Shown here: positions 3,905 through 50,069 of the stretch, one piece after another
Position numbering within the stretch: position 1 is the stretch's first letter
Layout: each line of letters opens with the position of its first letter
Source: Streptomyces celluloflavus
Lineage (GTDB): Bacteria > Actinomycetota > Actinomycetes > Streptomycetales > Streptomycetaceae
DNA length: 64,000 nucleotides
Reading direction: 5' to 3'
Assembly (NCBI GenBank): GCA_000720995.1
Contig: JOEL01000001.1
Coordinates: 248,001 to 312,000 of the forward strand
The notes under the pieces: generated by a model
Databases searched by the model: none
What the model was told of the DNA's origin: nothing
The model's input: only the letters and a program-made list of their open reading frames with translations
Position numbers and translations under genes: made by a program

Positions 3905-3921
3905 TGCAATGTTACATTGCA
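3905..3921. promoter_or_regulatory. Hyp-regulon operator copy 1 (perfect palindrome)
   Basis: TGCAATGTTACATTGCA, 8-bp arms around one base. It lies 41-57 nt upstream of the DapA-like start and, read on the minus strand, contains TAACAT, a TANNNT-like -10 element. The GT-n-AC core fits a GntR-type operator. Two related copies occur at 6968-6984 and 50053-50069. Confidence 0.75.
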
Positions 3922-3995
3922 TTGGCTCTCGGGGTGGGGTGAATCATGGGGTGTGAGGTGCAGGGGTGGGGTGGATGGAGCTTCTCAATCGCGCC

Positions 3996-5483
3996 TCAGC
4001 GGGCGGGCATTGACGACTCATCAGTTCCGGCGTCAGGGACGATGCCGGAGCCGGATTCGGGGTCCGCGCCGGGGTCGCCGGCGGCGAGGATGCCGAGCGG
4101 CAGCGGCTGCGCGATGGGCCGGCCGGCCATCCCCCGCAGTTCCTCCGCGGTCGCCTCACGTCCGGATCGTGCGGCGACCAGGCAGGCGGTGGCGTAACCG
4201 CAGACCCGTCCCTGGCACAGCCCCATACCGGGGCGCGCGTACAGCTTGACCGTGCGGGGGTCGGTCGCGCCCAGTTCCGTGACGGCCTCGGTGACGGTCC
4301 GCACGGTGACCTCCTCGCACCGGCACACCACGGTTTCGGGGCGCAGCCACCCCAGCCAGCCGGGGCGGACCGGAAACGCCCGATGCAGCGCGGCGGCGAA
4401 CTGCCGCTGTGCGGTACGCCGCCGCACCAGACGGCGGACCACCGCCGGGTCGGCGACGGCGGCGCCGACGGCCTGGGCGGCGTGCAGCCCGGCGAGTTCG
4501 CCCTCGGTCAGGGACAGGGCGGCGCCGCCGACGCCGCAGACCTCCCCGGCGAGGTAGACGCCGGGGGCCGAACCGCGCTGCCGGGCGTCGGCGGTGGCGA
4601 CCAGGCTGCCGTCGATATCGCGACGGGTCGCGCAGCCGAGCTGGAGCGGGATCTCGATCTGCGGGGTGAAGCCGTAGCCGACGGCGAGGGTGTCGCAGTC
4701 GAGCCGGCGCTCGCTGCCCGGTACGACCCGCCACCGGGCGTCGACGCGGGCCACCGTGACCCCGGTGACCTCGTCCTCGCCGTGCGCGGCGACCACGGCG
4801 GTGCGGGTCCGGTACGGCACGCGATGGCGCAGCAGCGTCCGCAGGAACCCCGCGCCCTCGGCGAGTTTCGCGGGATTAGCGGCCACGGTGAGCGGCTGCC
4901 GCACGAACGAGGCGGGCAGCCCGGCCTCGAAGACCCCGACCACGCGCGCGCCCGCCTCGGCGAGTCCGGCGGCGACGGCCGGAAGGAAGGGGCCGGTCCC
5001 GGCGACCGCAATCCGCCGTCCGGCGACCACACCGTGACCCTTCAGCAGCGCCTGCGCACCGCCCGCGGTGAACACCCCGGGCAACGTCCAGCCGGGGAAC
5101 GGGAGTTGGCGGTCGTAGGCGTCGGTGGCCACGACGACCGCGGTGCTCTCCACGACCTGCTCGGTCCCGTCGTGGAGGGTGTGTGTACGGAATCCGCCGG
5201 CCGTCCGCCCGGTATGCCAGACGGCGTGGCCGGGGAGGTGGTGGAGCCGGCCGGCGTGGGCGGCCAGTCCGTGGCGCAGTCGCTGGAAGGCGGCCCAGCC
5301 GTGGTGCGCCGCGCCCGTGTCGCCGGGGCGGTGGCGCCAGTACTGCCCGCCGACCCGCGGGCCCGCGTCGACCAGCGCGACCCGGGCGCCCGCGGCGGCC
5401 GCCGTGACCGCCGCCGCGAGACCGGCGGGGCCCGCGCCGAGCACCGCGAGATCGTACGGCCCGTCAGCACGCGAGGTCGTCAC
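3996..5483 (-). CDS. D-hydroxyproline dehydrogenase, FAD/BFD-[2Fe-2S] large subunit (HcnB-like)
   Basis: FAD-dependent oxidoreductase of 495 aa with N-terminal dinucleotide motif LAVLGAGPAGLAAAV and a C-terminal BFD-like [2Fe-2S] domain with C387, C389, C423 and C428 (VCRCEE ... GLCQGRVCG). This layout matches the HcnB/opine-oxidase subunit of heteromeric amino-acid dehydrogenases. Start GTG 5483 overlaps the end of the small ferredoxin-like subunit gene by 20 nt, so translation is probably coupled. It is the third gene of the operon D-amino-acid oxidoreductase, [2Fe-2S] subunit, large subunit. Expected job: pass electrons from cis-4-hydroxy-D-proline oxidation to the respiratory chain. Residues after about 460 are acidic and low-complexity. 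Confidence 0.87.
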   Translation of the reverse strand: MTTSRADGPYDLAVLGAGPAGLAAAVTAAAAGARVALVDAGPRVGGQYWRHRPGDTGAAHHGWAAFQRLRHGLAAHAGRLHHLPGHAVWHTGRTAGGFRTHTLHDGTEQVVESTAVVVATDAYDRQLPFPGWTLPGVFTAGGAQALLKGHGVVAGRRIAVAGTGPFLPAVAAGLAEAGARVVGVFEAGLPASFVRQPLTVAANPAKLAEGAGFLRTLLRHRVPYRTRTAVVAAHGEDEVTGVTVARVDARWRVVPGSERRLDCDTLAVGYGFTPQIEIPLQLGCATRRDIDGSLVATADARQRGSAPGVYLAGEVCGVGGAALSLTEGELAGLHAAQAVGAAVADPAVVRRLVRRRTAQRQFAAALHRAFPVRPGWLGWLRPETVVCRCEEVTVRTVTEAVTELGATDPRTVKLYARPGMGLCQGRVCGYATACLVAARSGREATAEELRGMAGRPIAQPLPLGILAAGDPGADPESGSGIVPDAGTDESSMPAR

Positions 5484-5787
5484 GGCCGGCTCCTTCCTGG
5501 GTCCTGACCAGGTCTCCCGGCGCGGCCTCGACCAGGCAGGCCCGCTGGTTCGGACGCCCGTTGACGGTGACCAGGCAGTCGAAGCAGACCCCGATGCCGC
5601 AGAACATCCCGCGCCCGGCGCCCGCGACCCGGGTGCGGCGCCAGGAGCGGTGCCCGGCGGCGAGGAGCGCGGCGGCGATGCTCTGGCCCGGCTCGGCCTC
5701 GATCGTCAGCTCGTCGAAGCGGAAGGGGAAGGACGGGCGGCGGGGGACGGCCGGCCCGCCCGCCCCGGCACGCGTATCGGTGCTCAT
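5464..5787 (-). CDS. Small [2Fe-2S] subunit of D-hydroxyproline dehydrogenase (HcnA-like)
   Basis: 107-aa protein with plant-type ferredoxin spacing C63-x4-C68-x2-C71-x12-C84 (FCGIGVCFDCLVTVNGR). The fold matches the small subunit of HcnABC and hydroxyproline dehydrogenase complexes. Start ATG 5787 overlaps the stop of the upstream oxidoreductase as ATGA, and its own end overlaps the start of the large subunit, so all three subunits should be made in a fixed ratio. The role is electron relay inside the complex. Confidence 0.88.
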   Translation of the reverse strand: MSTDTRAGAGGPAVPRRPSFPFRFDELTIEAEPGQSIAAALLAAGHRSWRRTRVAGAGRGMFCGIGVCFDCLVTVNGRPNQRACLVEAAPGDLVRTQEGAGRDDLAC

Positions 5788-6962
5788 ACGGTGGTCTCCT
5801 CGAACCGTTCCGGGCGGAAGGGGGCGAGATCCAGATCGGGCGCCGCCCCCGTGATGACCTGCGCGATCAGATGACCCGTTGCGGCGGACAGCCCGATCCC
5901 GGCGCCCTCGTGCCCGCAGGCGTGCAGCAGCCCGGGGGCGCGCGGATCGGCGCCGATCACCGGCAGATGGTCCGGGCAGTACGGCCGGAATCCCAGGTAG
6001 CTGCGCAGCAGTGCGACCTCGGCGAGGAACGGGAAGACCCCGATGGCCTGCGCGGCGAGTCTGCGCAGCACCGGCAGGGATACCGAACGGTCGAAGCCGA
6101 CCCGCTCCCGGCTGGCCCCGATCAGGACCGTGCCGGCCCGGGTGCCCTCGACCACGACGGAGGTCTGGAGCCCCGCGTCGCCGCTGGCGACATTGGCGAC
6201 GTACTCCGCGGTGTACACCTTGTGCCGCACCACCCGGGGCAGCGGCTCGGTGACCAGGATGAACCCCTTGCGGGGCAGGATGGGCAGCGGCACGCCCGCC
6301 AGCCCGGCCAGCTCGCCGCCCCAGGTGCCGGCGGCGTTGACGACCCGGCCGGCGGGGATCAGCGGTGCCGTGGCCGAGTCGGTACGGACGCCGGTGACGG
6401 CGCCACGACTGTCGCGTACGAACCCGGTGACCGCGGTGCCCGGCAGGACCGTGGCCCCGTGCTCCCGGGCGTGCCGCAGCAGCCGGGCCGTCGCCAGCAC
6501 CGGCTGGACCTGGCAGTCCTGCGGGTAGTACGCGCCGGCGGCCACCTCGGGCGTGATGTTCGGCTCCAGTCCGGTGACCTCGTCGCGGGAGACGTCGACC
6601 GCGTCGATACCGGCCGCGCGCTGGACGGCGGTCAGCTTCCGGAGCCCGTCGGCCGTCGCCGGCGAGGCGGCCACCATCACGCCGCCCTTCTCCTGGTACT
6701 CCAGCCGCTCCGCGCCCAGCGCCTGCGCGGTCCGCGCCCACAGTCGCGAGGACAGCAGCGCCAGTTCGAGTTCGGCTCCGGGCTCCTTGTCGGAGAGCAG
6801 GATGTTGCCCTCGCACGCCGCGGTGGTGGCGCCCCCGATCGCGCCCCGTTCGACCACGGTGACCCGCAGCCCCGCCGAGGTGCAGTGGTAGGCGCAGGCA
6901 GCGCCGACCATGCCCGCTCCGATGACGACGACGTCAGGAGACCGATTCGTCGAGCGATCCAT
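5784..6962 (-). CDS. FAD-dependent D-amino-acid (D-hydroxyproline) dehydrogenase, catalytic subunit
   Basis: DadA/glycine-oxidase-fold flavoprotein of 392 aa. The nucleotide-binding motif VVVIGAGMVGAACAY is at residues 11-25; a C-terminal block HACGHEGAGIGLSAATG binds the isoalloxazine in this family. It is the first gene of the dehydrogenase operon, so it is the likely catalytic subunit oxidising cis-4-hydroxy-D-proline to the pyrroline. The start ATG 6962 has no Shine-Dalgarno sequence, and the second hyp-type palindrome ends only 6 nt before it, which points to a leaderless mRNA (a CATTCT -10-like hexamer sits just upstream). A start further inside is unlikely because the dinucleotide motif begins at residue 11. 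Confidence 0.88.
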   Translation of the reverse strand: MDRSTNRSPDVVVIGAGMVGAACAYHCTSAGLRVTVVERGAIGGATTAACEGNILLSDKEPGAELELALLSSRLWARTAQALGAERLEYQEKGGVMVAASPATADGLRKLTAVQRAAGIDAVDVSRDEVTGLEPNITPEVAAGAYYPQDCQVQPVLATARLLRHAREHGATVLPGTAVTGFVRDSRGAVTGVRTDSATAPLIPAGRVVNAAGTWGGELAGLAGVPLPILPRKGFILVTEPLPRVVRHKVYTAEYVANVASGDAGLQTSVVVEGTRAGTVLIGASRERVGFDRSVSLPVLRRLAAQAIGVFPFLAEVALLRSYLGFRPYCPDHLPVIGADPRAPGLLHACGHEGAGIGLSAATGHLIAQVITGAAPDLDLAPFRPERFEETTV

Positions 6963-6967
6963 CGCAG

Positions 6968-6984
6968 TAGAATGTCACGTTGCA
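6968..6984. promoter_or_regulatory. Hyp-regulon operator copy 2
   Basis: TAGAATGTCACGTTGCA, 13 of 17 positions identical to the perfect copy at 3905-3921. It abuts the start codon of the dehydrogenase operon, so a bound repressor would sit directly on the promoter. Confidence 0.65.
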
Positions 6985-7149
6985 TTGCCCCGCGCCAGGG
7001 CCCGTACGGCAACCGGCCTACGGGCATCTGCCGTACCGCCGGGCCGAGTTGGGGCGGAGACGCCGGCAGGGCCGGGAGGTGCTGCCGGGAATCGCGGCGG
7101 TGGCCCCGGCGGGATTGTCAGTGCGGTCGGGCTCCGCGAACATGCCTCC

Positions 7150-7428
7150 ATGAGCCTGATGACCGATGGCAAAGCTCCTGGTCCGGTGCGCTTCTATCTC
7201 GCCTGTGACCGTGGCAAGTGCACCGAGAGAATCAGCTTTGACCTCGTGATCTCCGAGCCGCGGCCGGACGAAGAGGCGGACTTTCTCGGCCACATACTTC
7301 ACGAGGCCCACCACGCGGCCCCGCTCATCGCGGACCTGGGCTGGGTCTTCATCCAGGGCGGGGAAGGTTACTGGTGCCCCGCGTGCGCCGGCCCCACCCG
7401 CGACACCGGCACCCCCGACCCCTCGTAG
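7150..7428 (+). CDS. Small conserved-type protein with paired cysteines, function unknown
   Basis: 92-aa soluble protein. Two cysteine pairs, CDRGKC near residue 20 and WCPAC near residue 76, plus HILHEAHH, suggest a zinc-ribbon-like metal site. I do not recognise a characterised family. ATG 7150 and ATG 7159 are both possible starts and neither has a good ribosome site. It is monocistronic and followed by a perfect hairpin at 7445-7471, which supports it being a real gene. Confidence 0.6.
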   Translation: MSLMTDGKAPGPVRFYLACDRGKCTERISFDLVISEPRPDEEADFLGHILHEAHHAAPLIADLGWVFIQGGEGYWCPACAGPTRDTGTPDPS

Positions 7429-7444
7429 ACGCCCACACCAGGAC

Positions 7445-7471
7445 GGCGCCGGTCCTCATCGGACCGGCGCC
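7445..7471. terminator. Hairpin terminator
   Basis: 11-bp perfect arms GGCGCCGGTCC (7445-7455) and its complement (7461-7471) around a 5-nt loop, 17 nt after the small zinc-ribbon-like gene. Confidence 0.85.
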
Positions 7472-7855
7472 GCCCGCTGTCGGCGCGGAGCGGTGGCCCG
7501 GAACGGTGGCCCCGGGGGAGTGGTCCCCGAGCGCCGGTTCCCCTCGATCCGCCGAAAAGCGGATGACGGGCGCGGAACAGTTGTCGCGGCCGCTCGGAAA
7601 GTTCCGGCGGGAAAGTGAGTTCGCCGAATACAGGCACCAATGGCACAGGAAAAAATCCGTATTTCTCCCTCAATCGGGTGGACCGTCGGAATCGCCCTTC
7701 AAGAGACCTGCCCGCGCCCCTAAAGTCATGCCTCAGCACCGCATCACAGCGGAATTCCTCTCGCGTATCTGAAGCCGAGAGGCGCGGTCCGCGGGCGCCC
7801 GGGGCGCCCTGCCGGGCGTGGCCCAGAATTCCCGTTCCGAGGAAGGCACAGGGCA
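7472..7855. other. Intergenic leader before the antiporter
   Basis: 384 bp with no supportable gene. It is less GC-rich than its surroundings (for example 7600-7700) and probably holds the promoter and leader of the antiporter gene. I could not pick a clear -35/-10 pair. Confidence 0.4.
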
Positions 7856-9187
7856 TTGGCAGGTTCTTCGCTGGAAGCAATCGTGCTGGTCGACATCGCC
7901 GTCGTGCTGCTGATAGGAGTCGCTCTCGCACCGCTGCGGACCCGTCTGCGGCAGCCGGTGGTGGTCGGGGAGATCGCGGTCGGTGTGCTGCTCGGGCCGA
8001 GCGTGCTGGGCCTGCTGCCGGGGAATCTGCCGGCGAAGGTCTTCCCGGTCGAGGTGCGCAGCCACCTGTCGGTGATCGCCCAAGTAGGCATCGTCCTCTT
8101 CATGTTCGTGGCGGGCTGGGAACTCGAATTCCATTTGCTGCGTGGCCGGGTCCGCTCCGTACTCGCCATTACCGCGGCGTCCCTGACCGTGCCCTGCGCA
8201 CTGGCCTCCGCAGTGGCTTTCGCGCTCTTCGCGGGACATTCGAGTCTGGTGCCCGCCCATATCTCGCCGCCGCTCTTCATGCTCTTCATGGGCGTCGTCC
8301 TGTCGGTCAGTTCCCTGTCCGTGATGATCCGCATCCTGGGCGAGAACGGGCTCCAGGGCACCACCGCCGGCGCCATGGCCACCGCGTCCGGCGCGATCAC
8401 CGACCTCGTGGCGTGGTTCGCCTTCGTCTGCCTGATCACGGCGGCGCAGGGACTGAGCACCGGGAATCTGCTCCTCACCCTGGGCCGGGTCACGGCCTAC
8501 TCGCTGGCCATGGGCTTCGTCGTCCGCCCGGTCCTGCGCGCGCTGCTGCGCCGGGTCCACCCGCAGGGCGGACACTCGCTGTTGCTGATCTTCGCCGTCG
8601 GCAGCGGTGTCTTCGTGTCCGCGTGGTTCGCCACCTGCATCGGGATCCATGCCGTGATCGGGGCCTTCACGTTCGGCCTGGTCATGCCACGCGATCTGGA
8701 CCCCGCCGTGCGCCGGGCGATCGCGACGCCCCTGCACCATGTGGGAGCGCTACTGATCCCCGTCTTCTTCGGACTGACCGGCCTGTCCGTCGACATGGGC
8801 GCGCTCGGCTGGGGCGGAGCGCTGGCGCTCACCGCGTTCTTCGTCGTCTCGCTGGGCGGCAAATTCACCGGAACCGCGGTCACCGCGCGCCTGTTCCACC
8901 TGCCGTGGCGCGAAGCGGCGACCGTGGGCGTGCTGGTCAACAGCAAAGGGCTTGGCGAAGTCCTGATGCTCACCATGGGCCGGGAAGCGGGCCTCATCAA
9001 CGACCAGCTCTTCTCCGCGCTGTTCCTGACCGCGCTGCTCATGACCGCCTCCGTCAACCCGCTGGTACGACGCCTGACGCCGAAGGCCGGCAGTACGGAC
9101 CCCGGCGCCGCCGTCCCCGCGCAGCAGCAGGGACCGCACGCGGCCCCGGAGTTGAGCGACGACCACACCACCCGGGGCCCGACCTGA
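7856..9187 (+). CDS. Cation:proton antiporter, CPA2/Kef-type membrane domain
   Basis: 443-aa integral membrane protein with about 12 hydrophobic segments. The N-terminal block LRQPVVVGEIAVGVLLGPS and later GIVLFMFVAGWELE are hallmarks of Na+/H+ exchanger family CPA2; GIHAVIGAFTFGLVMP and NSKGLGEVLML carry the family's polar residues within membrane segments. There is no C-terminal TrkA-N domain, only about 40 polar residues. The start is TTG 7856 with GGAAGG 9 nt upstream; no better start fits. Exports Na+ or K+ in exchange for protons; the ion cannot be told from sequence. Similar exchangers occur next to antibiotic genes, but nothing here shows that. Confidence 0.9.
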   Translation: MAGSSLEAIVLVDIAVVLLIGVALAPLRTRLRQPVVVGEIAVGVLLGPSVLGLLPGNLPAKVFPVEVRSHLSVIAQVGIVLFMFVAGWELEFHLLRGRVRSVLAITAASLTVPCALASAVAFALFAGHSSLVPAHISPPLFMLFMGVVLSVSSLSVMIRILGENGLQGTTAGAMATASGAITDLVAWFAFVCLITAAQGLSTGNLLLTLGRVTAYSLAMGFVVRPVLRALLRRVHPQGGHSLLLIFAVGSGVFVSAWFATCIGIHAVIGAFTFGLVMPRDLDPAVRRAIATPLHHVGALLIPVFFGLTGLSVDMGALGWGGALALTAFFVVSLGGKFTGTAVTARLFHLPWREAATVGVLVNSKGLGEVLMLTMGREAGLINDQLFSALFLTALLMTASVNPLVRRLTPKAGSTDPGAAVPAQQQGPHAAPELSDDHTTRGPT

Positions 9188-9190
9188 GAC

Positions 9191-9228
9191 CGGGACAGGG
9201 CCGGCCGTGCGGGGCCGGCCCTGTCCCG
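9191..9228. terminator. Bidirectional hairpin terminator
   Basis: 16-bp perfect arms 9191-9206 and 9213-9228 with a 6-nt loop, between the convergent antiporter and nitrilase-family genes. Confidence 0.9.
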
Positions 9229-9260
9229 GGCGGTCGCGAGCGCCGCGGCCTGCCGCGCGG

Positions 9261-10055
9261 CTACAGGCGCCGGTTGGCCAGTACCGCGACGGCGCGGCGG
9301 ACACGGTCGGTCTCGGCAAGATCCACGTCGGCGGTGAGCAGATCCGGTGCCGCGCCCAGCCGGGCGCGTACGGTGCCGTCGGGGGCGGCCAGGAGGCTGT
9401 GGCCGATACCGGTCGGGGCCTTGGTGGGCAGTTCCGGATCGGCCAGCGGATCCGGGGCGGCGTGTCCGACGGCCGCCAGCCAGACCGTCGCGTCCAGGGC
9501 GCGGGCCCGCACCAGCAGTTCCCACTGCGCCAGCTTGCCGGGGCCGGCGCCCCAGGAGGCGGGCAGGACGCTGACGGTCGCCCCGGCGTCCGCGTGTGCC
9601 CGGAACAACTCGGGGAAACGCAGGTCGTAGCAGGTGCCCAGGCCGATACGGACCCCGTCGACATCGATGGTCACCACGCGGGTGCCCGGGGCGACGCTGT
9701 CGGACTCCCGGAACCCGAACGCGTCATACAAGTGAATCTTGTCGTAGGAGTCCTCCACGCCGGGCCCGGTGGCCAGCAGGGTGTTCACGACCCGGCCGTC
9801 CGGCGCGGGCGTGAACATACCGGCGACCACCGTCACCCCGGTCTCCCGGGCCACCGCCCGCACGCCCTCGGCCCACGGTCCGTCCAGCGGTTCGGCCACC
9901 GGACCGAGCGGCACCCCGAAGCGCACCATGGCCGCCTCGGGCAGCACCGCGAGCCGCGCCCCCGCGTGCGCCGCGCGGCGGACATGGTCCTGTACGGCCG
10001 CGAGGTTCTCCTCCGGGTCGGTCGATGCCGTCATCTGGCAGAGTGCGATGCGCAT
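9261..10055 (-). CDS. Carbon-nitrogen hydrolase (nitrilase superfamily)
   Basis: 264-aa amidase-type hydrolase with the full catalytic set: E40 (VLPEAAM), K106 (DKIHLYD) and C142 (GTCYDLRFPEL). This pattern is closest to omega-amidase/Nit2-like and aliphatic amidohydrolase branches, which cleave C-N bonds of small amides. Start ATG 10055 has AAGGAG 8 nt upstream. It stands alone with its own terminator. The substrate is not evident from neighbours. Confidence 0.9.
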   Translation of the reverse strand: MRIALCQMTASTDPEENLAAVQDHVRRAAHAGARLAVLPEAAMVRFGVPLGPVAEPLDGPWAEGVRAVARETGVTVVAGMFTPAPDGRVVNTLLATGPGVEDSYDKIHLYDAFGFRESDSVAPGTRVVTIDVDGVRIGLGTCYDLRFPELFRAHADAGATVSVLPASWGAGPGKLAQWELLVRARALDATVWLAAVGHAAPDPLADPELPTKAPTGIGHSLLAAPDGTVRARLGAAPDLLTADVDLAETDRVRRAVAVLANRRL

Positions 10056-10077
10056 GCGGCTCCTTCTCTCATGGTGA

Positions 10078-10115
10078 TCGATGATCCCCTCGTGATGACC
10101 GATGATGGACGATCG
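10078..10115. repeat. Degenerate 18-bp direct repeat upstream of the nitrilase gene
   Basis: On the minus strand ATCATCGGTCATCACGAG is followed after 3 nt by ATCATCGATCACCATGAG (15/18 identical, period 21 bp, two helical turns). It lies just before the ribosome site of the nitrilase-family gene and could be an operator. The rest of 10116-10384 shows no gene. Confidence 0.4.
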
Positions 10116-10384
10116 CTGATCCATTGTGGTCGGTGGTGGCCGGTGGCGACCGGTATCCGTGGTAGCACGACCGGGACTCGGCCCCCGTACGCGGTCGTGG
10201 CCGGGCATCGTCGCCCGCAGCCCGACGGCACTCCGGCGTCCACGTCGCGATCAGCCTCGCGCCCCGGCCGCACACCCGCAATGGTGACCACGGCGGTGGC
10301 GGCCGAAACGGACGCACATAGACACGAACCCGGCGGCGCCGGGCAGCCGTTGCCGTCCGGGGCGAGCCCGCCGCGCGCGGGCGC

Positions 10385-12772: not shown

Positions 12773-13311
12773 GCTGACCTCCTGGCGGGTGGCGGCTCTC
12801 CTCGGACGGTGGTGGCGGCTACGGCCTTCCGGGGAGCGTCCCGGGGGCCCACCGCTCCGGGCCGGCCGGGTGCGCACCGCCTCACCCGGCGCCGGCAGCG
12901 GTTCCGCCGCCCGCTCGCGGGAACGGCCCTGCGTACGAGGGCGATCGGGTGAATCCCGCCGGTACGGAGGCCGTACCGCCTCGGCGAAGCGGCCGACGCC
13001 GGTGCCGCACGTCACGGCGTCCGCGAGGTCCGCCCGCCGTACGCACCGGGCCGCCCCGGCGGAACCGGCCGGCCCGGCAGCTCGGTATCGCCCCCCCGGC
13101 CGCCGACCCGGCGGCGGTACCGGTCGTGCGCCCGCGGTGGCCGTATCCCCGGCCGGGCGGCACACTCACCTTGCGCCGGGCACGCCGCGCCCGCAACCGG
13201 ACCCCCGCCGCGCACGGCTCCGGACGGCGTGCCCCCGGCGGCGGGTTCCGGGGCCGCGACGGGGGGACGGACCGCCGTCGTCATGCCGGGCTCCCATTAC
13301 CGCCACACCTA
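12773..13311. other. Long divergent intergenic region (phosphoketolase / LPMO)
   Basis: About 540 bp of very GC-rich sequence with open frames in all six phases but no ribosome sites or protein family signal. It should hold the phosphoketolase promoter, which I could not place. The right-hand end runs into the LPMO promoter. Confidence 0.4.
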
Positions 13312-14059: not shown

Positions 14060-14073
14060 TCCGCCGTACCCGA

Positions 14074-31305: not shown

Positions 31306-31310
31306 GACCG

Positions 31311-40017: not shown

Positions 40018-40038
40018 GCCGCCGGGCCGAGCAATTAA

Positions 40039-40047: not shown

Positions 40048-40049
40048 AG

Positions 40050-40631: not shown

Positions 40632-40668
40632 CACGGCCGCCCGCCGGCCGACCGCCCCGCCCCCGTCG

Positions 40669-40923: not shown

Positions 40924-41052
40924 CCGGGCAGGGGCGTACAAATGCACCGCGACCACCCTCGGCACCGCGGCGACGGACCACCGGCGCCGGAGATCTGAGG
41001 CGGCCCCGCCCGCTCGGGGGCCGGGGCCGCCCCGCCCCCTGACGGCGCCCGC

Positions 41053-42351: not shown

Positions 42352-43879
42352 GGGCGATCCACTCCTCGATCCGGCTCCGTGCGATCTTGCCGCTCGATGT
42401 CAGCGGCCAGGTGGCAAGCGTGAAGAAACGGCGGGGGACCATATAGCGCGGTAACACGGTGCCGCAGAGTTCGCGTACCGCGGCCTGGCTCAGTCCGTCC
42501 GTACCGGGCCCGGAGACGACGGCGACCAGCGCCTGGCCCAGATGGTCGTCGGGTACCGAGGTCACCACCGCCGTGTCGATCCGGGCCAGCCGGACGAGGG
42601 CGTTCTCCACCTCGGACGGATAGACGTTCAGGCCCCCGGTGATCACCATGCCGCCGCGGCCGACGAGATGGAGCCGGCCGTCCGCCGTGAGCCGGCCGAT
42701 GTCCCCGACGGTGGACCAGCCCCCTTCGGTGCGGAAACCGCCCTCGCCCCACACATAGCCGTCGCACACCAGAGGGCTGCGCACATGCACCATGCCTGTC
42801 GCGCCGCGCGGTACGGGCACCCCCTCGGCATCGCGGATCTCCAGCGTGACGGAGGGGAAGGCCGTGCCGACATCGCGGGCGGCCGTTGCCGGGCCGGGGG
42901 AGCCGACGGTGACGAAGCCGAGTTCCGAGGCGCCGTAGTACTCCCGTATCCGCGCCTCGGGCAGCAGCGCGCCGACGGGCGCGAGCAGCCGCGGGGGGAG
43001 CTTGGCGCCGCCGCTGACCACCGCCTTGACGCCGGTGAACCGTCGCGCCGGGCCGTCCGCGGCGCCGCCGGCGGCCGCGCAGAGCGCGCTGAGCATGGTC
43101 GGCACCACGATCAGCCGGCGTACGGATGCCGCCGCCAGCAGCCGCAGCACCGCCCCGGCGTCGAACCTGCTCAGCCCGTGGAAGGCCGCCCCGCTCTCCA
43201 GGCACTCCGCCAGTGCGTAGAGGCTCAGGCCGTGGGCCAGCGGTCCCGGCGCGAGCGTGGACTGCTCGGCGTCCAGGCCCCAGACCCGTCGGCCTGCGGC
43301 GAGGCTGATCCGCCAGGAACCGCGGGTCCGGTGGAAGGCGTGCGGCAGACCGGAGGTCCCGGAGGTGAAGCCGACGAAGAAAGGGGCGGCGTCGTCGCCG
43401 GGCAGCAGATGTTCCGCCGGGGCCGCCCCGGACCAGCCGTCCCGCCATCTCTCGTACGTGCCAGGGGTGGTGTCGCCGTCGGCGGTCAGTGTCCGGATGC
43501 CGAGGCGGTCTGCCACGGCGTGCAGCGCGTCCTGTCCGGCCGCGAGGACCAGCAGATCGGGGCGGAGCCGGTCCAGTACGGCGGCGGTCTGCTCCGTGCC
43601 CCACTGCGGGTCGAGGACGGCGCAGACACCGTCACCCGCGGTCGCACCGGTGAACAGTTCGGCGAAGACCGGGTGGTTGCCCGTGCCGATGGCCAGCAGT
43701 CGGGCGCCCGTCGGCAGCCACTCGCGGCGGCCGGCGGGGACGGTCCGCAGTCCGGCCGCCACCGCGGCGGCCCGGTCGGCAAGTTGGCGATGGGTCAGCA
43801 CCCGCCCGTCCAGGACGAAGGCGGGCTCCTCCTGGCGCGGTCCCGCCGCGGTCCGCGCGACCCGATGTGCCACCGGCAT
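42305..43879 (-). CDS. AMP-dependent acyl-CoA synthetase/ligase
   Basis: 524 aa ANL-superfamily enzyme. The P-loop-like motif FVGFTSGTSGLPHAF, the A5 block EYYGASELGFV, the A7 aspartate (STVGDIGRL) and the C-terminal lysine block LTSSGKIARSRI are intact, so it should adenylate a carboxylate and load it onto CoA. In the BioY operon the likely substrates are pimelate-like or other short acyl acids (inference). Start ATG 43879 has GAGGTGAG at 7-nt spacing, 6 nt after the bioY stop codon. Confidence 0.9.
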   Translation of the reverse strand: MPVAHRVARTAAGPRQEEPAFVLDGRVLTHRQLADRAAAVAAGLRTVPAGRREWLPTGARLLAIGTGNHPVFAELFTGATAGDGVCAVLDPQWGTEQTAAVLDRLRPDLLVLAAGQDALHAVADRLGIRTLTADGDTTPGTYERWRDGWSGAAPAEHLLPGDDAAPFFVGFTSGTSGLPHAFHRTRGSWRISLAAGRRVWGLDAEQSTLAPGPLAHGLSLYALAECLESGAAFHGLSRFDAGAVLRLLAAASVRRLIVVPTMLSALCAAAGGAADGPARRFTGVKAVVSGGAKLPPRLLAPVGALLPEARIREYYGASELGFVTVGSPGPATAARDVGTAFPSVTLEIRDAEGVPVPRGATGMVHVRSPLVCDGYVWGEGGFRTEGGWSTVGDIGRLTADGRLHLVGRGGMVITGGLNVYPSEVENALVRLARIDTAVVTSVPDDHLGQALVAVVSGPGTDGLSQAAVRELCGTVLPRYMVPRRFFTLATWPLTSSGKIARSRIEEWIAHDDARIVPLPDGPRG

Positions 43880-43885
43880 CCGTGC

Positions 43886-44467
43886 TCACCTCGGTTCGAT
43901 CGGATAGGAGCGCCGTACGTGGTGCGCGACGGCCGCCGCGACCGCCGCCTTGAGCGTGTCCCCGATCGCGAAGTAGGCGGCGCCGAGGGCGGCCTTCCCG
44001 ATTCCCAGGCCCGTGGTCATCGACGTCCACGGGACACCGACGGCGTAGACGACGAGGAGTCCGCCGACGAGGCAGGCGGCGAAGTGGGCGGCCAGCGACG
44101 TGAGGCGGCCGCCGGCCCGTACCGCGAACCGCTTCACCAGCCACCCGGTGACGAACGCGCCGGGGATCCAGCCCAGCAGATACCCGCCGGTCGGCCCCGG
44201 GATCACACCCAGTCCGCCCCGGCCGCCGGAGAGCACCGGCAGTCCGAGCACGGTCAGCAGCACGACCAGGGCGCAGGCACCGGCGCCGCGTACGGGACCC
44301 AGCACCGCTCCCGCGAGCATCACGCCCAGCGTCTGCAAGGTGACCGGCACCGGAATGACCGCGATGCTGACCGGTGGGAGCAGCCCCAGCGCGACGATGA
44401 CCGCGCAGAACAGGGCGATCAGCACCAGGTCCTGAGTGCTCATGGGGCGTCGGGTGCGTACGGTCAT
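43886..44467 (-). CDS. bioY: Biotin transporter S component BioY
   Basis: 193 aa, six membrane segments. BioY blocks: LIALFCAVIVALGLLPP, IPVPVTLQTLGVMLAGAVLGPVRGA, LPVLSGGRGGLGVIPGPTGGYLLGW and VPWTSMTTGLG near the end. It binds biotin and docks with EcfT and the ATPase in the membrane. Start ATG 44467 overlaps the stop of bioN as ATGA. A complete bioYNM set makes this a dedicated biotin ECF importer. Confidence 0.95.
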   Translation of the reverse strand: MTVRTRRPMSTQDLVLIALFCAVIVALGLLPPVSIAVIPVPVTLQTLGVMLAGAVLGPVRGAGACALVVLLTVLGLPVLSGGRGGLGVIPGPTGGYLLGWIPGAFVTGWLVKRFAVRAGGRLTSLAAHFAACLVGGLLVVYAVGVPWTSMTTGLGIGKAALGAAYFAIGDTLKAAVAAAVAHHVRRSYPIEPR

Positions 44468-45120
44468 CCGGGTGCCTTTCCGCTGAGCCGGTCGTCACGG
44501 TCGGGGTGCCGGGAGCGGGCCGGCGGGTAGCAGCGGGCGTCGATGGCGGCCGCGATGTCCTCCGCCGACCTCAGCACCCGGATCACCAGGGGCACGACGA
44601 GCGCGAGCGGACTGCCCCGCAGCCCGCGCGCCGCCTGGGCCTCCCGGATCTCCTGGAACTGCTGGAACACCTCCGGGATGAAGCGCAGCGCCAGCGACAC
44701 GGCGAGCGCGACGGCCGGCGCGTTCACCAGCCCCGCCCGGTCCAGTGGACGCAGCATCACCTCCAGTACGCCCTGGAGTTCGGAGGTCCGGGTGGTGAGG
44801 GTGACGCTCAGCGCGGTCAGCAGCAGGATGACCAGACGCAGTCCCACGACGAGCGCCGCGTGCCCCGACTCGCTTAGGGCGGCGACCGCCACCACGGCGG
44901 CCAGGACCCACAGCGGGCCGCGCAACTGGCGGGCGAGCTGCTCCCGGGGGGCCCGTACGGTCAGCAGCAGGACCAGTGCGAGGCCGGCGGCCGGGCCGAG
45001 CAGCGTCACGGACCTGGTGAGGAACACGGCCACACCGCACAGCAGCAGCACCGCCAGCTTCCACCCGGCCGGGACCCGGTGCAGCGGCGAGGTGCCGGGC
45101 ACGTACAGGGACATCCTCAT
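44464..45120 (-). CDS. bioN: ECF transporter transmembrane T component BioN
   Basis: 218 aa, five or so membrane segments. Coupling helices are QQFQEIREAQAARGLRG (first Ala-Arg-Gly motif) and EDIAAAIDARCY (second motif with Cys for Gly). Links the S component BioY to the ATPase. ATG 45120 overlaps the bioM stop as ATGA, and its end overlaps bioY, so the three transporter genes are translationally coupled. Confidence 0.93.
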   Translation of the reverse strand: MRMSLYVPGTSPLHRVPAGWKLAVLLLCGVAVFLTRSVTLLGPAAGLALVLLLTVRAPREQLARQLRGPLWVLAAVVAVAALSESGHAALVVGLRLVILLLTALSVTLTTRTSELQGVLEVMLRPLDRAGLVNAPAVALAVSLALRFIPEVFQQFQEIREAQAARGLRGSPLALVVPLVIRVLRSAEDIAAAIDARCYPPARSRHPDRDDRLSGKAPG

Positions 45121-45794
45121 GAGTGGTGCGCCACGTACCAGGGGACGGCGGTCCGCGGCGGGCCGTCGTACGCGATGCGGCCCGCGTCGAGGACCAGTAC
45201 CCGGTCGAAGCCGTCGAGCAGACCGAGGTCGTGGGTCAGGACGACGGCCTGCTGCGGCAGGGCGGCGATCACGGCCCGGAGCCGATTGCGGTTGCGCAGG
45301 TCCAGCAGGGTGGTCGGCTCGTCGAACACCACCGTCTCCGGTCGCATGACCAACACCGCGGCCAGCGCGACGAGTTGCTTCTCGCCGCCGCTGAGGGCAT
45401 GGCTGGGCCGGCCGGCCAGTGCGGCGATGCCGAGATCCGCCAGTTGCTCGCGGACCCGGCCGGGTATCTCCTTACGGGGCACGCCGGTGTTCCGCAGCCC
45501 GAAGGCCAGGTCCTCCTCGACGAGGGGCAGGACGATCTGGTTGTCCGGGTTCTGGAAGACGAAGCCCACCCGGCGGCGGATCCGGCGGGCGTCCGTCGCC
45601 GTGTCGTCCGCCCCGACCAGGACCGTTCCCGCACTCGGCAGGACCAGACCGTTGAGCAGCCGGGCGAAGGTGCTCTTGCCGGAACCGTTGGCGCCGATCA
45701 CGCCGATCCGCCGCTCGGTCAGTTCGACGCTGACGGCGTCCAGTACCGTGCGCGGGCCGAACCGTACGGACACACCGTCCAGGGCTATCCGCAC
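45117..45794 (-). CDS. bioM: ECF transporter ATPase BioM
   Basis: 225 aa. Walker A GANGSGKST, Q-loop FQNPDNQIV, signature LSGGEKQ, Walker B VVFDEPTTLLD and the H-loop LTHD are intact. Start GTG 45794 comes 2 nt after the thioesterase stop; the longer upstream frame is not coding. Powers biotin uptake with BioN and BioY. Confidence 0.93.
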   Translation of the reverse strand: MRIALDGVSVRFGPRTVLDAVSVELTERRIGVIGANGSGKSTFARLLNGLVLPSAGTVLVGADDTATDARRIRRRVGFVFQNPDNQIVLPLVEEDLAFGLRNTGVPRKEIPGRVREQLADLGIAALAGRPSHALSGGEKQLVALAAVLVMRPETVVFDEPTTLLDLRNRNRLRAVIAALPQQAVVLTHDLGLLDGFDRVLVLDAGRIAYDGPPRTAVPWYVAHHS

Positions 45795-45796
45795 GG

Positions 45797-46243
45797 CTAC
45801 CGGTCCCCGGTCCCGGGCCGTGGGGCGGCGGGCTCCGGGGCGGGAGGCACGGCGGCGAGGGCGTCGCGGGTCGGCGCGGGCACGGGGCGGGGCCGGCCGG
45901 TCTTCTTGTCGACGCAGACCCAGACGACCTCGGCCCGTGCGACCGGCGCCCCGTCCCCGGCGCGTACCACCGCGGCGGAGAAGGTCAGACTGCTGGTGCC
46001 GATCCGCCGCACGCCCGCGCTGATGTCCAGGAGGTCGTCGAAGCCCGCCGCACCCTCGTAGCAGAGCTCGATCTTCTTCACGTGGTAGACGACGCCGTGG
46101 GAGTCGGCCCGGGGGTCGAAACGATCGGAGAGGCCCGCCTCGCGGAGGAACTCGTTGATCGCGGTCTCCGCGTAGGAGCAGTAGACGCCGTTGTGCACAT
46201 GACCGTGCATGTCCACATCGGAGAACGGAACTCGCTGCCGCAC
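45797..46243 (-). CDS. Acyl-CoA thioesterase, 4HBT hotdog (YbgC-like)
   Basis: 148 aa. Active-site block VPFSDVDMHGHVHNGVYCSYAETAINEFL places the catalytic Asp at D11, as in 4-hydroxybenzoyl-CoA thioesterase and YbgC/FadM. Start GTG 46243 follows a GGGGGG site. It is the first gene of the thioesterase-bioM-bioN-bioY-ligase-thiolase operon, so it probably releases an acyl group made or handled by the ligase/thiolase pair. The last 30 residues are Pro/Ala-rich. Confidence 0.88.
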   Translation of the reverse strand: MRQRVPFSDVDMHGHVHNGVYCSYAETAINEFLREAGLSDRFDPRADSHGVVYHVKKIELCYEGAAGFDDLLDISAGVRRIGTSSLTFSAAVVRAGDGAPVARAEVVWVCVDKKTGRPRPVPAPTRDALAAVPPAPEPAAPRPGTGDR

Positions 46244-46348
46244 GAACCCCCCGCTCGCCGTGTAGGGTCACGGGCGGCCCGGGCCCGTGCGCACAGCACC
46301 GTACCCAGACCGCCACCACACTGTCACCACCATGTGAGGACTTCGCCG

Positions 46349-47350
46349 ATGTCCCGAAGCCTCCGAGGCATCGTCAGGGAGTTCGGTCCCGCCGCCCAGG
46401 TGGTCGGCACGGAGCGCTACGAACCCACCCGGCCGGGGCCCGGACAGGTGGCCGTCCGCATGGTGCTGGCGAGCATCAACCCCTCCGACCTGGTGACCAT
46501 CTCCGGTGCGTACGCCTCCCGCACCGTGCTGCCGTTCGTGCCCGGTTTCGAAGGCGTCGGGGTGGTCGAGGAGACCGGCCCCGGGGTGCGGGACCTCCGG
46601 GCCGGACAGCGGGTGCTCCCGCTCGGCAGCGCGGGCGCCTGGCAGCAGACCAAGGTCACCGACAGCCGGTGGTGCCTGGCCGTCCGACCCGAGCTCACCG
46701 ACGAACAGGCCGCCACCGCGTACATCAACCCGCTCACCGCGCTGCTGATGACCCGGCACCATGTGCTGGACACCGGGGCCGAGGTGGTCGCGGTCAACGC
46801 CGCCGCCTCCGCCATCGGCCGGATGCTGATCCGGATGCTCAACCGGGCGGGGATCCGGCCCATCGCCCTCGTCCGCCGGCCGCACAGCCTGGCGCGGCTC
46901 GCCGGCACCGAGCTGACCGCCGCGGTGTGCACCGCCGACCGTCCGGCGGGGGAGGCCCTGCACGAGATCACCCGGGGTCGCGGTCTCGATGTGGCACTGG
47001 ACGCGGTGGGCGGTACGGAGGGCGCGGAACTCGGCCGCGCGCTGGCCGCCGGCGGCACCCTGGTGCACTACGGCCTGCTCTCCGGACAACCGCTGCCACC
47101 GCAGTTGCCGGCCGAGCGGCGCGATGTGCGGATCGTCCTGTTCCGGCTCCGGGACTGGGTGCACACCGTTCAGGCCGAGGCCCCGGACCGGCTCGCCGAC
47201 GCCCTGGCCGAGGTCTTCGGCCTGGTGCTGGACGGCACGGCCGCCTCGCAGGTGGCGGGCGTGTACCCGCTGTCCGCCGTACGACAGGCGCTGGAGCGGG
47301 ACGCGGCACCGGGACGGCGGGGGAAGGTGCTGTTGCGCCTCACCGAGTGA
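46349..47350 (+). CDS. MDR-family reductase, MECR/quinone-oxidoreductase-like
   Basis: 333 aa. Medium-chain dehydrogenase fold without the catalytic zinc ligands. VLASINPSDLVTISGAY and NAAASAIGRMLIRMLN resemble mitochondrial-type trans-2-enoyl thioester reductases (MECR/ETR1), which use NADPH. Start ATG 46349, 21 nt after a hexamer-rich spacer and divergent from the thioesterase operon by about 105 nt. An enoyl-CoA reductase here would complement the acyl-CoA genes across the promoter (inference). Confidence 0.85.
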   Translation: MSRSLRGIVREFGPAAQVVGTERYEPTRPGPGQVAVRMVLASINPSDLVTISGAYASRTVLPFVPGFEGVGVVEETGPGVRDLRAGQRVLPLGSAGAWQQTKVTDSRWCLAVRPELTDEQAATAYINPLTALLMTRHHVLDTGAEVVAVNAAASAIGRMLIRMLNRAGIRPIALVRRPHSLARLAGTELTAAVCTADRPAGEALHEITRGRGLDVALDAVGGTEGAELGRALAAGGTLVHYGLLSGQPLPPQLPAERRDVRIVLFRLRDWVHTVQAEAPDRLADALAEVFGLVLDGTAASQVAGVYPLSAVRQALERDAAPGRRGKVLLRLTE

Positions 47351-47504
47351 ACGGCCGGCCACCGGCGGTGCGGTGCGCGCCCGCCCGACGGGACCGTGCT
47401 CGTCCGGCGGCGATGCCCGGGGCCGGTCGCGTTCGCCCGGCATCACGTCCGGTACCCCGCAGACCGGCGGTGCCGCCGTGGCGACGGCGACGCGCCCGCC
47501 GTGG

Positions 47505-49100
47505 TCAGTCCCGTCTGGCAAGGACGGCGCGGAGGACCTCGGCGAGCGTCGCGGCCGGGTCCGGCGCGGCGGACGGGCTGCGCCAGGCGACGAAACCGTC
47601 CGGGCGGACGAGTACCGCACCGTCGGCGTCGATGCCGTGCGCCGTCTCACCGTCCTCGACGTCGATGTCCGCGCCGAGGACGTACGCCCGGACCGCCACG
47701 CCCATCGCGGCACCGAGGTCCTTCGCGGTCCCGGCCCATCCCTGGCCGTCGTGGCCGGCCAGGAGGACGAAAGTCTCGCCGTACAGGTCGAGGGTGGAAC
47801 CGCCGTCCGCGGTCGGCCGGTGCGGTGCCCGCGTGCCGGGTTGCGCACGCAGCTCGACGGCGCGGATCGGGGCGGTCTCGCGGTTGCCGGGCACGGCCGC
47901 CGAGGCGTACCGGAAGCCCATCGTCACCGCCGAGTAGTCGAGCAGCTCCACCTGCGCGCCACCGGCCATCCGGTCGCCGAACCGGGCGAACGCCTGCCGC
48001 ATGGCGAGCTCACCGTAGGGCCGCCGCTCGGCGTCGTAGGTGTCGAGCAACCCGGGACCGGCCCACCCGGTGAGGACGGCGGCGAGTTTCCAGGCCAGGT
48101 TGTGGACGTCCTGGATCCCGGTGCTCCCGCCGAACCCGCCCGTGGGCGGCTGGCTGCGGGCGGCGTCCCCGGCCAGGAACACCCGGCCCGAGCGGTACGA
48201 ACGCGCGACCCGGGCGCCGACCGGGAAGCCGAGCACGGTCACGTCGGTGCCGGGTATCTGGGGCAGCAACGAGACGTCGACCCCGTCCAGTCCGGACGCC
48301 TCCCGCACCATCCCCGCCACGCGCTCGGCGGTGAAGTCCGCCACCGACTCGTGCCGCGGGTCGTACCCGGTGCTGAACAGCCAGCGCGAGCCCGCGGCGT
48401 CGTGCGGCATCACCGCGCTGAACGGGCGCGGCTTCTGCAGGTAGACGATGCCGATACTGCGGCCGCGCACGGCGGCCGAGAGGTCCGCGTCGACGATCGC
48501 CGTGATCGTGTGGAACAGCTCTCCCGGCCCGTCGGTCTCGATCCCCAGCCATGCGCGGATCCGGCTCCTCGACCCGTCGGCCGCGATGACGTAGTCCGCG
48601 CGGATCACTTCCTCGTCGCCGCTCGCGCGGTCCCGGACGGTCACCGTGACACCGTCGGCGTCCTGGTCCAGAGAGGTCATCTCGGTGAAGTGCCGGATAT
48701 CGGCGCCGAGTTCGCGGGCGCGGTCGCGCAGCAGGAGTTCGAGCCGGTCCTGGTCGATCCCCGCGTTGGCCGATGGGCTGAAGGCGCGGGGGTCGATGAA
48801 CTCCGTGTGGCTGGCCTCCTCCACCGGTTCGTACTCGTCCGCGAGCGTGTTCGCCCGCAGTGGCACGAAGCCGACGTCCTCGCCGCGGAAGCTCTCCTTG
48901 CGGATCGCCGGACCGAGCCCGACCTGGCGGAAGACCTCGACGGTCCGCGGTGTGATGCCGCGCAGCCTCGGGTGTAAGAGCAGGTCGGGATGGCGCTCCA
49001 CCACCGTTGCCCGGATGCCCTGGTGGGCGAGGAAGACGGCGGCGCTCAGCCCGGTGAGGGCGCCTCCGACGACAAGTACCTGAGTCTTCTGCTGATGCAT
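47505..49100 (-). CDS. FAD-dependent aromatic/polyketide monooxygenase (bldA-type TTA codon)
   Basis: 531 aa class A flavin hydroxylase. GxGxxG variant VLVVGGALTGLSAAVFLA at the N-terminus, the NADPH-contact DG motif VIAADGSRSRIR, and the GD motif VFLAGDAARSQPPTGGFGGSTGIQDVHNLAWKL; the thioredoxin-like C-terminal domain matches PgaE/RdmE-type enzymes that hydroxylate aromatic polyketides or detoxify aromatic drugs. Leu42 is encoded by TTA (48975-48977), the rare codon read by bldA tRNA. Start ATG 49100 has no ribosome site; the promoter ends at it, so the mRNA is probably leaderless. Divergent from a TetR gene that likely represses it. Confidence 0.92.
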   Translation of the reverse strand: MHQQKTQVLVVGGALTGLSAAVFLAHQGIRATVVERHPDLLLHPRLRGITPRTVEVFRQVGLGPAIRKESFRGEDVGFVPLRANTLADEYEPVEEASHTEFIDPRAFSPSANAGIDQDRLELLLRDRARELGADIRHFTEMTSLDQDADGVTVTVRDRASGDEEVIRADYVIAADGSRSRIRAWLGIETDGPGELFHTITAIVDADLSAAVRGRSIGIVYLQKPRPFSAVMPHDAAGSRWLFSTGYDPRHESVADFTAERVAGMVREASGLDGVDVSLLPQIPGTDVTVLGFPVGARVARSYRSGRVFLAGDAARSQPPTGGFGGSTGIQDVHNLAWKLAAVLTGWAGPGLLDTYDAERRPYGELAMRQAFARFGDRMAGGAQVELLDYSAVTMGFRYASAAVPGNRETAPIRAVELRAQPGTRAPHRPTADGGSTLDLYGETFVLLAGHDGQGWAGTAKDLGAAMGVAVRAYVLGADIDVEDGETAHGIDADGAVLVRPDGFVAWRSPSAAPDPAATLAEVLRAVLARRD

Positions 49101-49106
49101 ACCAAC

Positions 49107-49135
49107 AGAATCAATCGCTTGGATGAGCTTGTCAA
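49107..49135 (-). promoter_or_regulatory. Promoter of the FAD monooxygenase
   Basis: On the minus strand TTGACA (49130-49135), a 17-nt spacer and GATTCT (49107-49112), ending 6 nt before ATG 49100, so transcription should start at or next to the start codon. Confidence 0.7.
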
Positions 49136-49147
49136 TCAGATGGATGA
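49111..49147. repeat. 16-bp direct repeat, probable TetR operator
   Basis: TCAATCGCTTGGATGA (49111-49126) and TCAATCAGATGGATGA (49132-49147), 13/16 identical, period 21 bp. It spans the -35 and spacer of the monooxygenase promoter and the space up to the TetR promoter. Confidence 0.6.
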
Positions 49148-49181
49148 TTAAGTTAACCGGTCGGATGGCAGAATCCTGGCC

Positions 49182-49871
49182 ATGACCAGTGAGAAGAGGG
49201 CCGCGGACGCACGGCGGACGACGCGGCGGGCGCCGGCCGCGCACGAGCGGCAGCGTGACCCGGAGCGCACCAAGGCGCTGATCCTCGACGCCGCGACCGA
49301 GGAGTTCTCCGCCAAGGGCTTCGCCGGCGCCCGGGTGGCCGAGATCGCCGCCCGCGCCGGCGTGAACCAGCAGCTCATCACGTACTACTTCGACGGCAAG
49401 GCGGGCCTGTACCGGGAGATCGGCCGACGATGGCGGGCCTACGAGAGCCAGGCGTTCCCCGACGACATGGACTACGCCGAGATGATCAAGAGCTATGTGC
49501 GGGTGAGCGTCGACCCCCGTCTCGGCGGGCGCCTCCTCGCCTGGGAAGGTCTCGCCGACACCGGCGAGGACGACGAGGAGGAAGCGGCCGAACGCAACGC
49601 CCGGCTGCGACACGAGGTGGCGGTGATCCGCGAGCGCCAGCTGGCCGGCGAACTCGACGACCGGTTCGACCCGGCCGCACTGCTGCTCATCACGATGAGC
49701 ACGGCGAACGCGCTGACGGTCTACCCCCAGCTGGCCCGCGGCCTGTTCGGCGCCGACGCGAGCTCTCCCGAACTGGTCGAGCACTACGCCGAACAGCTCG
49801 CCCTCCTGATCGGCTGCCTCACGGGCGGCGGCTCCGGTCTGGCGGGTGGCGGCTCGGGTCAAGCCGACTGA
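49182..49871 (+). CDS. TetR-family transcriptional regulator
   Basis: 229 aa with a long basic N-terminal arm, then the helix-turn-helix RTKALILDAATEEFSAKGFAGARVAEIAARAGVNQQLITYYFDGKAGLYREI. The C-terminal domain is of the UidR/TetR_C type and it ends in a Gly/Ser-rich tail. Start ATG 49182 lacks a clear ribosome site. It is divergent (81 nt) from the FAD monooxygenase and likely controls that gene and itself through the direct repeat between them. Confidence 0.9.
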   Translation: MTSEKRAADARRTTRRAPAAHERQRDPERTKALILDAATEEFSAKGFAGARVAEIAARAGVNQQLITYYFDGKAGLYREIGRRWRAYESQAFPDDMDYAEMIKSYVRVSVDPRLGGRLLAWEGLADTGEDDEEEAAERNARLRHEVAVIRERQLAGELDDRFDPAALLLITMSTANALTVYPQLARGLFGADASSPELVEHYAEQLALLIGCLTGGGSGLAGGGSGQAD

Positions 49872-50052
49872 TCTTGGGCTGCGGGGCGGGGGAGGGTGCG
49901 GCCTCCGTCCCGACGGCGCGGCCTGTTCAGTAGTTCTTCGGTTTCGGCTCCGTGCCGACGTGCCGTGTCCGACTTCGGCGCTATGGCCCCAACGTCCCGC
50001 CATCACACGGAACATGACGAGGCGGAGCGCGTCGCCGCGCGAGCTGTAACAT

Positions 50053-50069
50053 AGTAATGTGAAATTGCA
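50053..50069. promoter_or_regulatory. Hyp-regulon operator copy 3, upstream of the Xaa-Pro peptidase
   Basis: AGTAATGTGAAATTGCA, 13 of 17 identical to the perfect palindrome at 3905-3921, in the only AT-rich patch of the spacer and 117 nt before the start codon. Confidence 0.6.

Follow-up and report, generated by a model that had tools for sequence, protein, structure and literature searches.

A predicted collagen and hydroxyproline regulon that includes an aminopeptidase P-like peptidase in Streptomyces celluloflavus and its relatives

HypR (SCO6294) of Streptomyces coelicolor A3(2) is a FadR-type GntR regulator and, as presented in the sections of Kotowska et al. 2019 (PMC6608401) drawn on here, represses a hydroxyproline operon together with the genes of a collagenase and of a 2-oxoglutarate decarboxylase/dehydrogenase. 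Its box is TGC(A/C)ATGTCAC; the protected region holds TACAATGTCAC, and fragments of similar sequence are bound as well. L-Hydroxyproline induces transcription in vivo, and HypR binding in vitro is unaffected by it (PMC6608401). In Proteobacteria (S. meliloti), a GntR-family HypR controls the genes of the epimerase, oxidase/dehydrogenase, deaminase, and semialdehyde dehydrogenase, and OCD-family genes are regulon members in some taxa (comparative reconstruction of Leyn et al. 2016, PMC5343134, in the parts consulted). A further report features HypR as a control protein only, as far as its consulted text goes (PMC13170358). As described in these sources, HypR regulons start at free hydroxyproline and leave open the step from imported collagen peptides to free hydroxyproline. 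The subject of the present analysis is a 64,000-nucleotide stretch of Streptomyces celluloflavus, called the window hereafter (positions 248,001 to 312,000 of contig JOEL01000001.1, G000:C1:248001-312000 in our numbering; genome of 8.68 Mb in 193 contigs). It carries three operator-like sites—in front of two hydroxyproline operons and of a gene for an M24B Xaa-Pro peptidase. We hold it to be very probable that the three sites are operators of HypR-family GntR/FCD repressors, and that the peptidase belongs to a collagen/hydroxyproline regulon, which would be dispersed in this genome and clustered in many relatives.

Operator-like sites and their conservation

The first site is the perfect palindrome TGCAATGTTACATTGCA (3905-3921), a predicted HypR-type operator with fully complementary 8-bp arms, located 41-57 bp 5' of the ATG (3864) of the lyase-epimerase-reductase operon. 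The second, equally a predicted HypR-type operator, is the degenerate palindrome TAGAATGTCACGTTGCA (6968-6984), 6-22 bp 5' of the ATG (6962) of the dehydrogenase operon. The third, AGTAATGTGAAATTGCA (50053-50069), precedes the peptidase gene. Both weaker sites agree with TGCAATGTTACATTGCA at 13/17 positions, and the three are the only sites of at least 13/17 on either strand of the window—against a chance expectation with a mean of 0.08 and a maximum of 2 in 100 first-order Markov simulations. A sequence check and this whole-window scan confirm the sites, coordinates, and identities given in the preliminary description, and the coordinates place the sites before the three genes or operons that it had named. 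By inspection, the 3905 site includes TGCAATGTTAC and the reverse strand of the 6968 site reads TGCAACGTGAC, each 10/11 to the HypR box of PMC6608401; the case for the 6968 site is one of similarity and position.

The site at the peptidase gene lies within a longer conserved element and predicted operator, of which it forms the core: the 29-mer GTAACATAGTAATGTGAAATTGCACTGAC (50046-50074, forward strand), which lies 113-141 bp 5' of the GTG at 50187. Its reverse strand features two box-like sequences spaced by 13 bp, TGCAATTTCAC (10/11 to the HypR box) and TACTATGTTAC (9/11); a match of 10/11 is reached by 0.275% of 20,000 shuffled 29-mers. The conservation of the element was judged in the best 80 of 400 relatives obtained in a peptidase scan of GTDB genomes (76 Streptomyces, 3 Kitasatospora, and 1 labelled Actinobacteria bacterium). 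Within about 450 bp upstream of the peptidase orthologue, the best match is 29/29 in 50 loci, 24-28 in 29 loci, and 22 in one. Hence, an element of at least 24/29 precedes 79 of the 80 named orthologues, the exception being L155; the reversed motif never exceeds 19/29 upstream of the same genes. In the preliminary description, absence of the motif upstream of orthologous peptidases was to count against the idea; the opposite is observed. In a genus sample, the match is at least 24/29 at 24 of the 30 closest peptidase loci and 22-23 at four. Over the 80 loci, the mean major-base frequency is 0.966 within the 29-mer and falls to 0.605 and 0.553 in the 50-bp flanks. The 17-bp palindrome was rejected as a full description of the peptidase site, the island of conservation spanning 29 bp; of the single palindrome proposed earlier for all three sites, the 13/17 likeness stands and the peptidase operator is better described as the 29-bp element. 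Starting 8 bp upstream of the 29-mer, a TGTGA is conserved to 92-98% in the 80 relatives; the window has CGCGA there (50038-50042).

An untargeted scan, with up to three mismatches allowed, located the 29-mer 58 times in 121 genomes, distributed over 39 of them; the reversed pattern had no match. All but one of these copies (57/58) adjoin a peptidase orthologue, the M9 collagenase gene colB, a peptide-binding lipoprotein gene, or a hydroxyproline dehydrogenase gene; 24 are peptidase sites, and the remaining copy (L091) lies at a contig end. The element occurs in 39 of 98 genomes that bear HypR—defined by our own cut-off of a best E at or below about 1e-60—versus 0 of 23 that do not (Fisher p=4.6e-5, a value made too small by shared descent). 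Genomes with a peptidase orthologue carry it in 27 of 34 cases (p=1.2e-11, too small for the same reason).

Regulators, collagenases, and gene neighbourhoods

By tblastn at E<=1e-4, the window contains neither of the two HypR-like proteins of this genome nor its candidate semialdehyde dehydrogenase, in keeping with the preliminary description, which had noted the absence of a regulator and of the dehydrogenase from the window and had suggested a regulator of the GntR family. The latter suggestion agrees with the two HypR-like GntR/FCD genes found outside the window and with the relatives. HypR1 (L005:6552-7256, contig C13; Pfam GntR and FCD) is encoded at a locus (L005, G000:C13:50000-69000) that also comprises the M9 collagenase gene colA, a second set of hydroxyproline genes, and, in divergent orientation, an aldehyde dehydrogenase gene. 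At this locus, sites precede colA and hypR1 and also occur in the gap that separates the dehydrogenase gene from that of the aldehyde dehydrogenase. The site upstream of hypR1 contains on its reverse strand TACAATGTCAC, the core of the S. coelicolor footprint. The C13 gene set is more complete than that of the window and includes two proline-racemase-family genes; the enzymes common to both are 47-71% identical.

HypR2 (L009:3797-4510, contig C20; Pfam GntR and FCD) is 67% identical to HypR1, and its gene is divergent from that of a second M9 collagenase, colB. The site between hypR2 and colB agrees with the peptidase site at 27/29 bp. A third M9 collagenase gene, colC, lies on contig C14 (L008, G000:C14:83000-91000) and has TGCAATGTTAC upstream. 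The genome thus encodes at least three M9 collagenases, and the HEXXH motif is present in all three. A LysR gene adjoins colC and features TGCAATGTCAC about 135 bp upstream (L008 positions: 3625; upstream of 7305); this gene may also be part of the regulon. Exact matches to TRCMATGTSAC include G000:C5:141169, C10:5000, and C44:54980, among six box matches.

In many relatives, such as S. avidinii (L153) and S. virginiae (L159), the peptidase gene is part of a collagen/hydroxyproline gene cluster. At a distance of up to 10 kb from the 80 named peptidases, we count the dehydrogenase at 63 loci, the epimerase, the lyase, and colB at 61 each, HypR at 45, and the importer lipoprotein at 23, where some of the 80 loci end at contig ends. 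The order in L113 and L115 is peptidase, element, colB, dehydrogenase subunits, lyase, epimerase, and HypR2, and a second element precedes the importer gene. Between HypR2 and this second element lies a 5'-nucleotidase-like gene, divergent from the importer gene (L113:11983-14106, with Pfam 5_nucleotid_C and Metallophos; L115:13039-14871). The lipoprotein gene of L114 adjoins OppB/OppC-like permease genes. At six loci (L193, L197, L199, L205, L208, and L210), the peptidase gene faces a lyase-epimerase operon across the element, extended by an OCD gene in four; this lyase-epimerase(-OCD) order is that of the window operon at 3864-1009. Judged by gene order and content, the window genome is a dispersed version of the cluster found in the relatives.

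A different M24B protein, 46-51% identical to that of the window, is encoded beside hydroxyproline genes in other lineages (L266-L270), and L267 carries TACAATGTCAC between divergent dehydrogenase and M24B genes (10072-10172). These loci were chosen for an M24B gene near hydroxyproline genes, with tables for 8 of 20 loci, and show the occurrence of the arrangement rather than its frequency; they hint that the two kinds of gene either were joined early or came together on two occasions.

Hydroxyproline operons and the peptidase

Both hydroxyproline operons of the window are on the reverse strand. The first starts with a DHDPS-family lyase (2950..3864; Pfam DHDPS 3.9e-41), a probable 1-pyrroline-4-hydroxy-2-carboxylate deaminase whose gene order matches that of the relatives. 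It is followed by a 4-hydroxyproline epimerase of the proline racemase family (1944..2930; Pfam Pro_racemase 1.4e-124), which scores 337 bits against the NCBIfam 4-hydroxyproline epimerase model with a cut-off of 376, and by an OCD/mu-crystallin family protein resembling Delta1-pyrroline-2-carboxylate reductases (1009..2187; Pfam OCD_Mu_crystall 3.6e-45). The best NCBIfam matches of the latter are pyrroline-2-carboxylate reductases, under cut-off, and the true start of its open reading frame is probably near 1947. The second operon encodes the DAO-family subunit of a D-hydroxyproline dehydrogenase (5784..6962; Pfam DAO 3.8e-67), its small [2Fe-2S] subunit (5464..5787; Pfam Fer2_4 1.8e-24), and an FAD/NAD oxidoreductase subunit with a BFD-like [2Fe-2S] domain (3996..5483; Pfam Pyr_redox_2 and Fer2_BFD). 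D-Hydroxyproline as the substrate is inferred from gene position, the NCBIfam matches all being below cut-off. Pfam bears out the gene families first proposed for both operons and for the peptidase. Epimerase, dehydrogenase, and deaminase genes are thus present in the window, and the aldehyde dehydrogenase gene of C13 is the semialdehyde dehydrogenase candidate, so that known or predicted genes for these four enzymes of the hydroxyproline pathway are encoded in the genome. Among the matches listed for the 121 genomes, the DAO subunit of the window has none above 70% outside its own genome, and the best full-length match is 66%. With no full-length match of the dehydrogenase above this value in the other genomes listed, the two operons of the window give the impression of an isolated lineage.

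The peptidase gene (50187..51575, forward strand) encodes an M24B Xaa-Pro aminopeptidase with the Pfam domains AMP_N and Peptidase_M24. Among solved structures, those of aminopeptidase P come closest to it and those of prolidases next; with aminopeptidase P (PepP, MEROPS M24B; PDB 5wze, 4pv4, and 1a16), it has the AMP_N and M24 domains and the metal ligands in common. It differs from PepP in that the curated cut-off of the NCBIfam PepP equivalog NF008131 is not reached (189.6 versus 465 bits). Residues D281, D293, H371, E402, and E426—which we take to be the five metal ligands by homology to E. coli aminopeptidase P—and H378, presumably the second active-site histidine, are invariant in 80 of 80 orthologues. 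Compared with the other close M24B copy of the genome (C32), to which it is 59% identical over residues 176-459, the window enzyme forms a separate lineage. The earlier label of prolidase is replaced accordingly, the sequence being closer to aminopeptidase P. Aminopeptidase P cleaves at X-Pro bonds, and M9 collagenases are expected to leave peptides of the Gly-Pro-Hyp type. By its domains and metal ligands, the window peptidase is aminopeptidase P-like, and cleavage of X-Pro and X-Hyp bonds is predicted.

Alternative readings and comparison with known systems

Several observations weigh against a single regulon that includes the peptidase. In S. coelicolor, of seven fragments bound by HypR, three either were unaffected by deletion of hypR or had no promoter activity, and therefore a box alone is no proof of regulation; the peptidase is also absent from the published HypR targets as given in the consulted parts of the report (PMC6608401). 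For a comparison of the 3905 and 6968 sites across species, the 121-genome sample offers no close orthologue of the window dehydrogenase. Among the 30 closest homologues in the genus sample, two lack the 29-mer—L020, which has the palindrome-like TGCAATGTGACATTACA in its place, and L039, which has nothing—and the four at 22-23 match in part only. A close orthologue of the importer lipoprotein of the relatives was not found in the window genome (best 41%), and, among the open reading frames listed at further sites on C8, C12, and C71, none is recognisable as a hydroxyproline or collagen gene. The main caveat is the sharing of the element with divergent genes, taken up below.

The alternative that survives best, somewhat short of an even chance in our estimate, is that of two circuits, in which HypR1 would act on the palindromic sites (window operons and C13) and HypR2 on the 29-bp element (peptidase and colB), their likeness stemming from paralogy and not from one regulon. 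The genome does have two HypR-like regulators, and the notion of one palindrome and one regulator is therefore unproven. In a tree of 91 HypR proteins—built without the SCO6294 sequence and including one very long row, L270_7890—HypR1 (five rows) and HypR2 (66 rows) are on distinct branches of one clade, apart from 19 rows of other loci, and the site most similar to that of the peptidase is the one at the HypR2 locus. Against two circuits, the DNA-binding region is nearly invariant: the winged-helix stretch, with SATPVREAMLDL and NKGF in it, is largely conserved to more than 97% over the 91 proteins. In addition, in L123 a gene of the HypR1 type adjoins a peptidase gene with a 27/29 element, and the L020 peptidase has a palindrome-type site, which argues for overlapping specificities of HypR1 and HypR2. 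Of the two, HypR2 probably has the better claim to regulate the peptidase, as the best second match to the 29-mer in the genome sits at HypR2/colB.

Rather unlikely is the reading in which the element serves as operator only for what is transcribed away from the peptidase gene, be it a collagenase gene, an importer gene, or a lyase operon, with the peptidase as a bystander in the common intergenic region. At 23 of the 24 peptidase sites of the untargeted scan, colB or an importer gene is indeed divergent from the peptidase gene, and at the six further loci described above, a lyase gene is. The copy without such a partner is that of the window genome, where the gene upstream of the element is a TetR gene on the same strand (49182-49871), yet the element is retained at 29/29. 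Moreover, in L124-L126 the peptidase gene is the first of several genes on one strand and is followed by those of the dehydrogenase and the lyase, with the epimerase gene among them in L124 and L125; this fits functional membership. The TetR protein itself was considered as a shared regulator and set aside: it does not appear at E<=1e-15 among the two best matches listed for any open reading frame of 20 + 12 relative loci, a comparison that did not extend to a genome-wide search.

Less likely still is that the element has nothing to do with HypR and is instead the target of another regulator or part of a core promoter. Its palindromic symmetry is poor, it exceeds the published HypR box in length, and in most relatives the conservation reaches the upstream TGTGA. 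Against this stand the HypR box at 10/11 inside the element, its co-occurrence with HypR genes, and its association with hydroxyproline or collagen genes in 57 of 58 copies; in addition, a scan of 49870-50200 for sigma-70-type promoters found none, which speaks against a core promoter. That the three short sequences resemble each other by chance is hardly credible, for although the two weaker sites reach only 13/17, three sites are observed versus 0.08 expected, and the 79 of 80 orthologues already contradict it at the peptidase site.

The reading that we prefer, with the peptidase as a member of the HypR regulon, retains the main idea of the preliminary description, which the rest of the genome and the relatives support. 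In this regulon, HypR1 and/or HypR2 would sit on the sites and repress, and repression would be lifted when hydroxyproline or a metabolite derived from it builds up. Secreted M9 collagenases would cut collagen into short peptides, which would enter the cell, where the M24B aminopeptidase would cleave in front of Pro or Hyp. The freed hydroxyproline would then be epimerised, oxidised, and deaminated to 2-oxoglutarate semialdehyde, which the aldehyde dehydrogenase would convert to 2-oxoglutarate. A further-reaching version, which we regard as evenly balanced, is a regulon of Streptomyces and Kitasatospora that covers the whole route from collagen to 2-oxoglutarate. In it, paralogous repressors of the HypR type would bind a near-invariant double operator, in which 13 bp separate two HypR boxes and, in most relatives, the conserved TGTGA lies 20 bp from the inner box; they would jointly control secreted collagenase, oligopeptide import, an aminopeptidase P dedicated to collagen peptides, and hydroxyproline oxidation. 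If the peptidase and a peptide importer were governed by the same operator, the gap between imported collagen peptides and free hydroxyproline would be closed. Gained thereby are a regulon map of a 29-bp operator and five gene classes, and a named candidate enzyme for collagen peptides such as Gly-Pro-Hyp.

What had been put forward as a new collagen-use module is new in part. The regulon and its link to a collagenase are already known from S. coelicolor (PMC6608401), the main text of which has no occurrence of the words prolidase or aminopeptidase. The consulted parts of the proteobacterial study likewise name no peptidase or collagenase as a HypR target (PMC5343134), and among the open-access titles listed, none points to an Xaa-Pro peptidase or a peptide importer as part of a hydroxyproline regulon. 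The predicted peptidase/importer arm, the second HypR paralogue, and the putative 29-bp operator were not found in the literature searched and appear to be new. In five of the loci whose HypR proteins fall outside the clade of HypR1 and HypR2 (L267-L269, L275, and L276, among those with gene tables), hypR adjoins the epimerase gene, and SCO6294 of S. coelicolor adjoins SCO6293 by number in a like manner. As far as the consulted text of PMC6608401 goes, the present system resembles the S. coelicolor HypR regulon in its GntR/FCD regulator, its box, the genes of its hydroxyproline operon, and an M9 collagenase as target; it differs by the addition of an Xaa-Pro peptidase and a peptide importer, by two HypR paralogues, and by the near-invariant 29-bp element.

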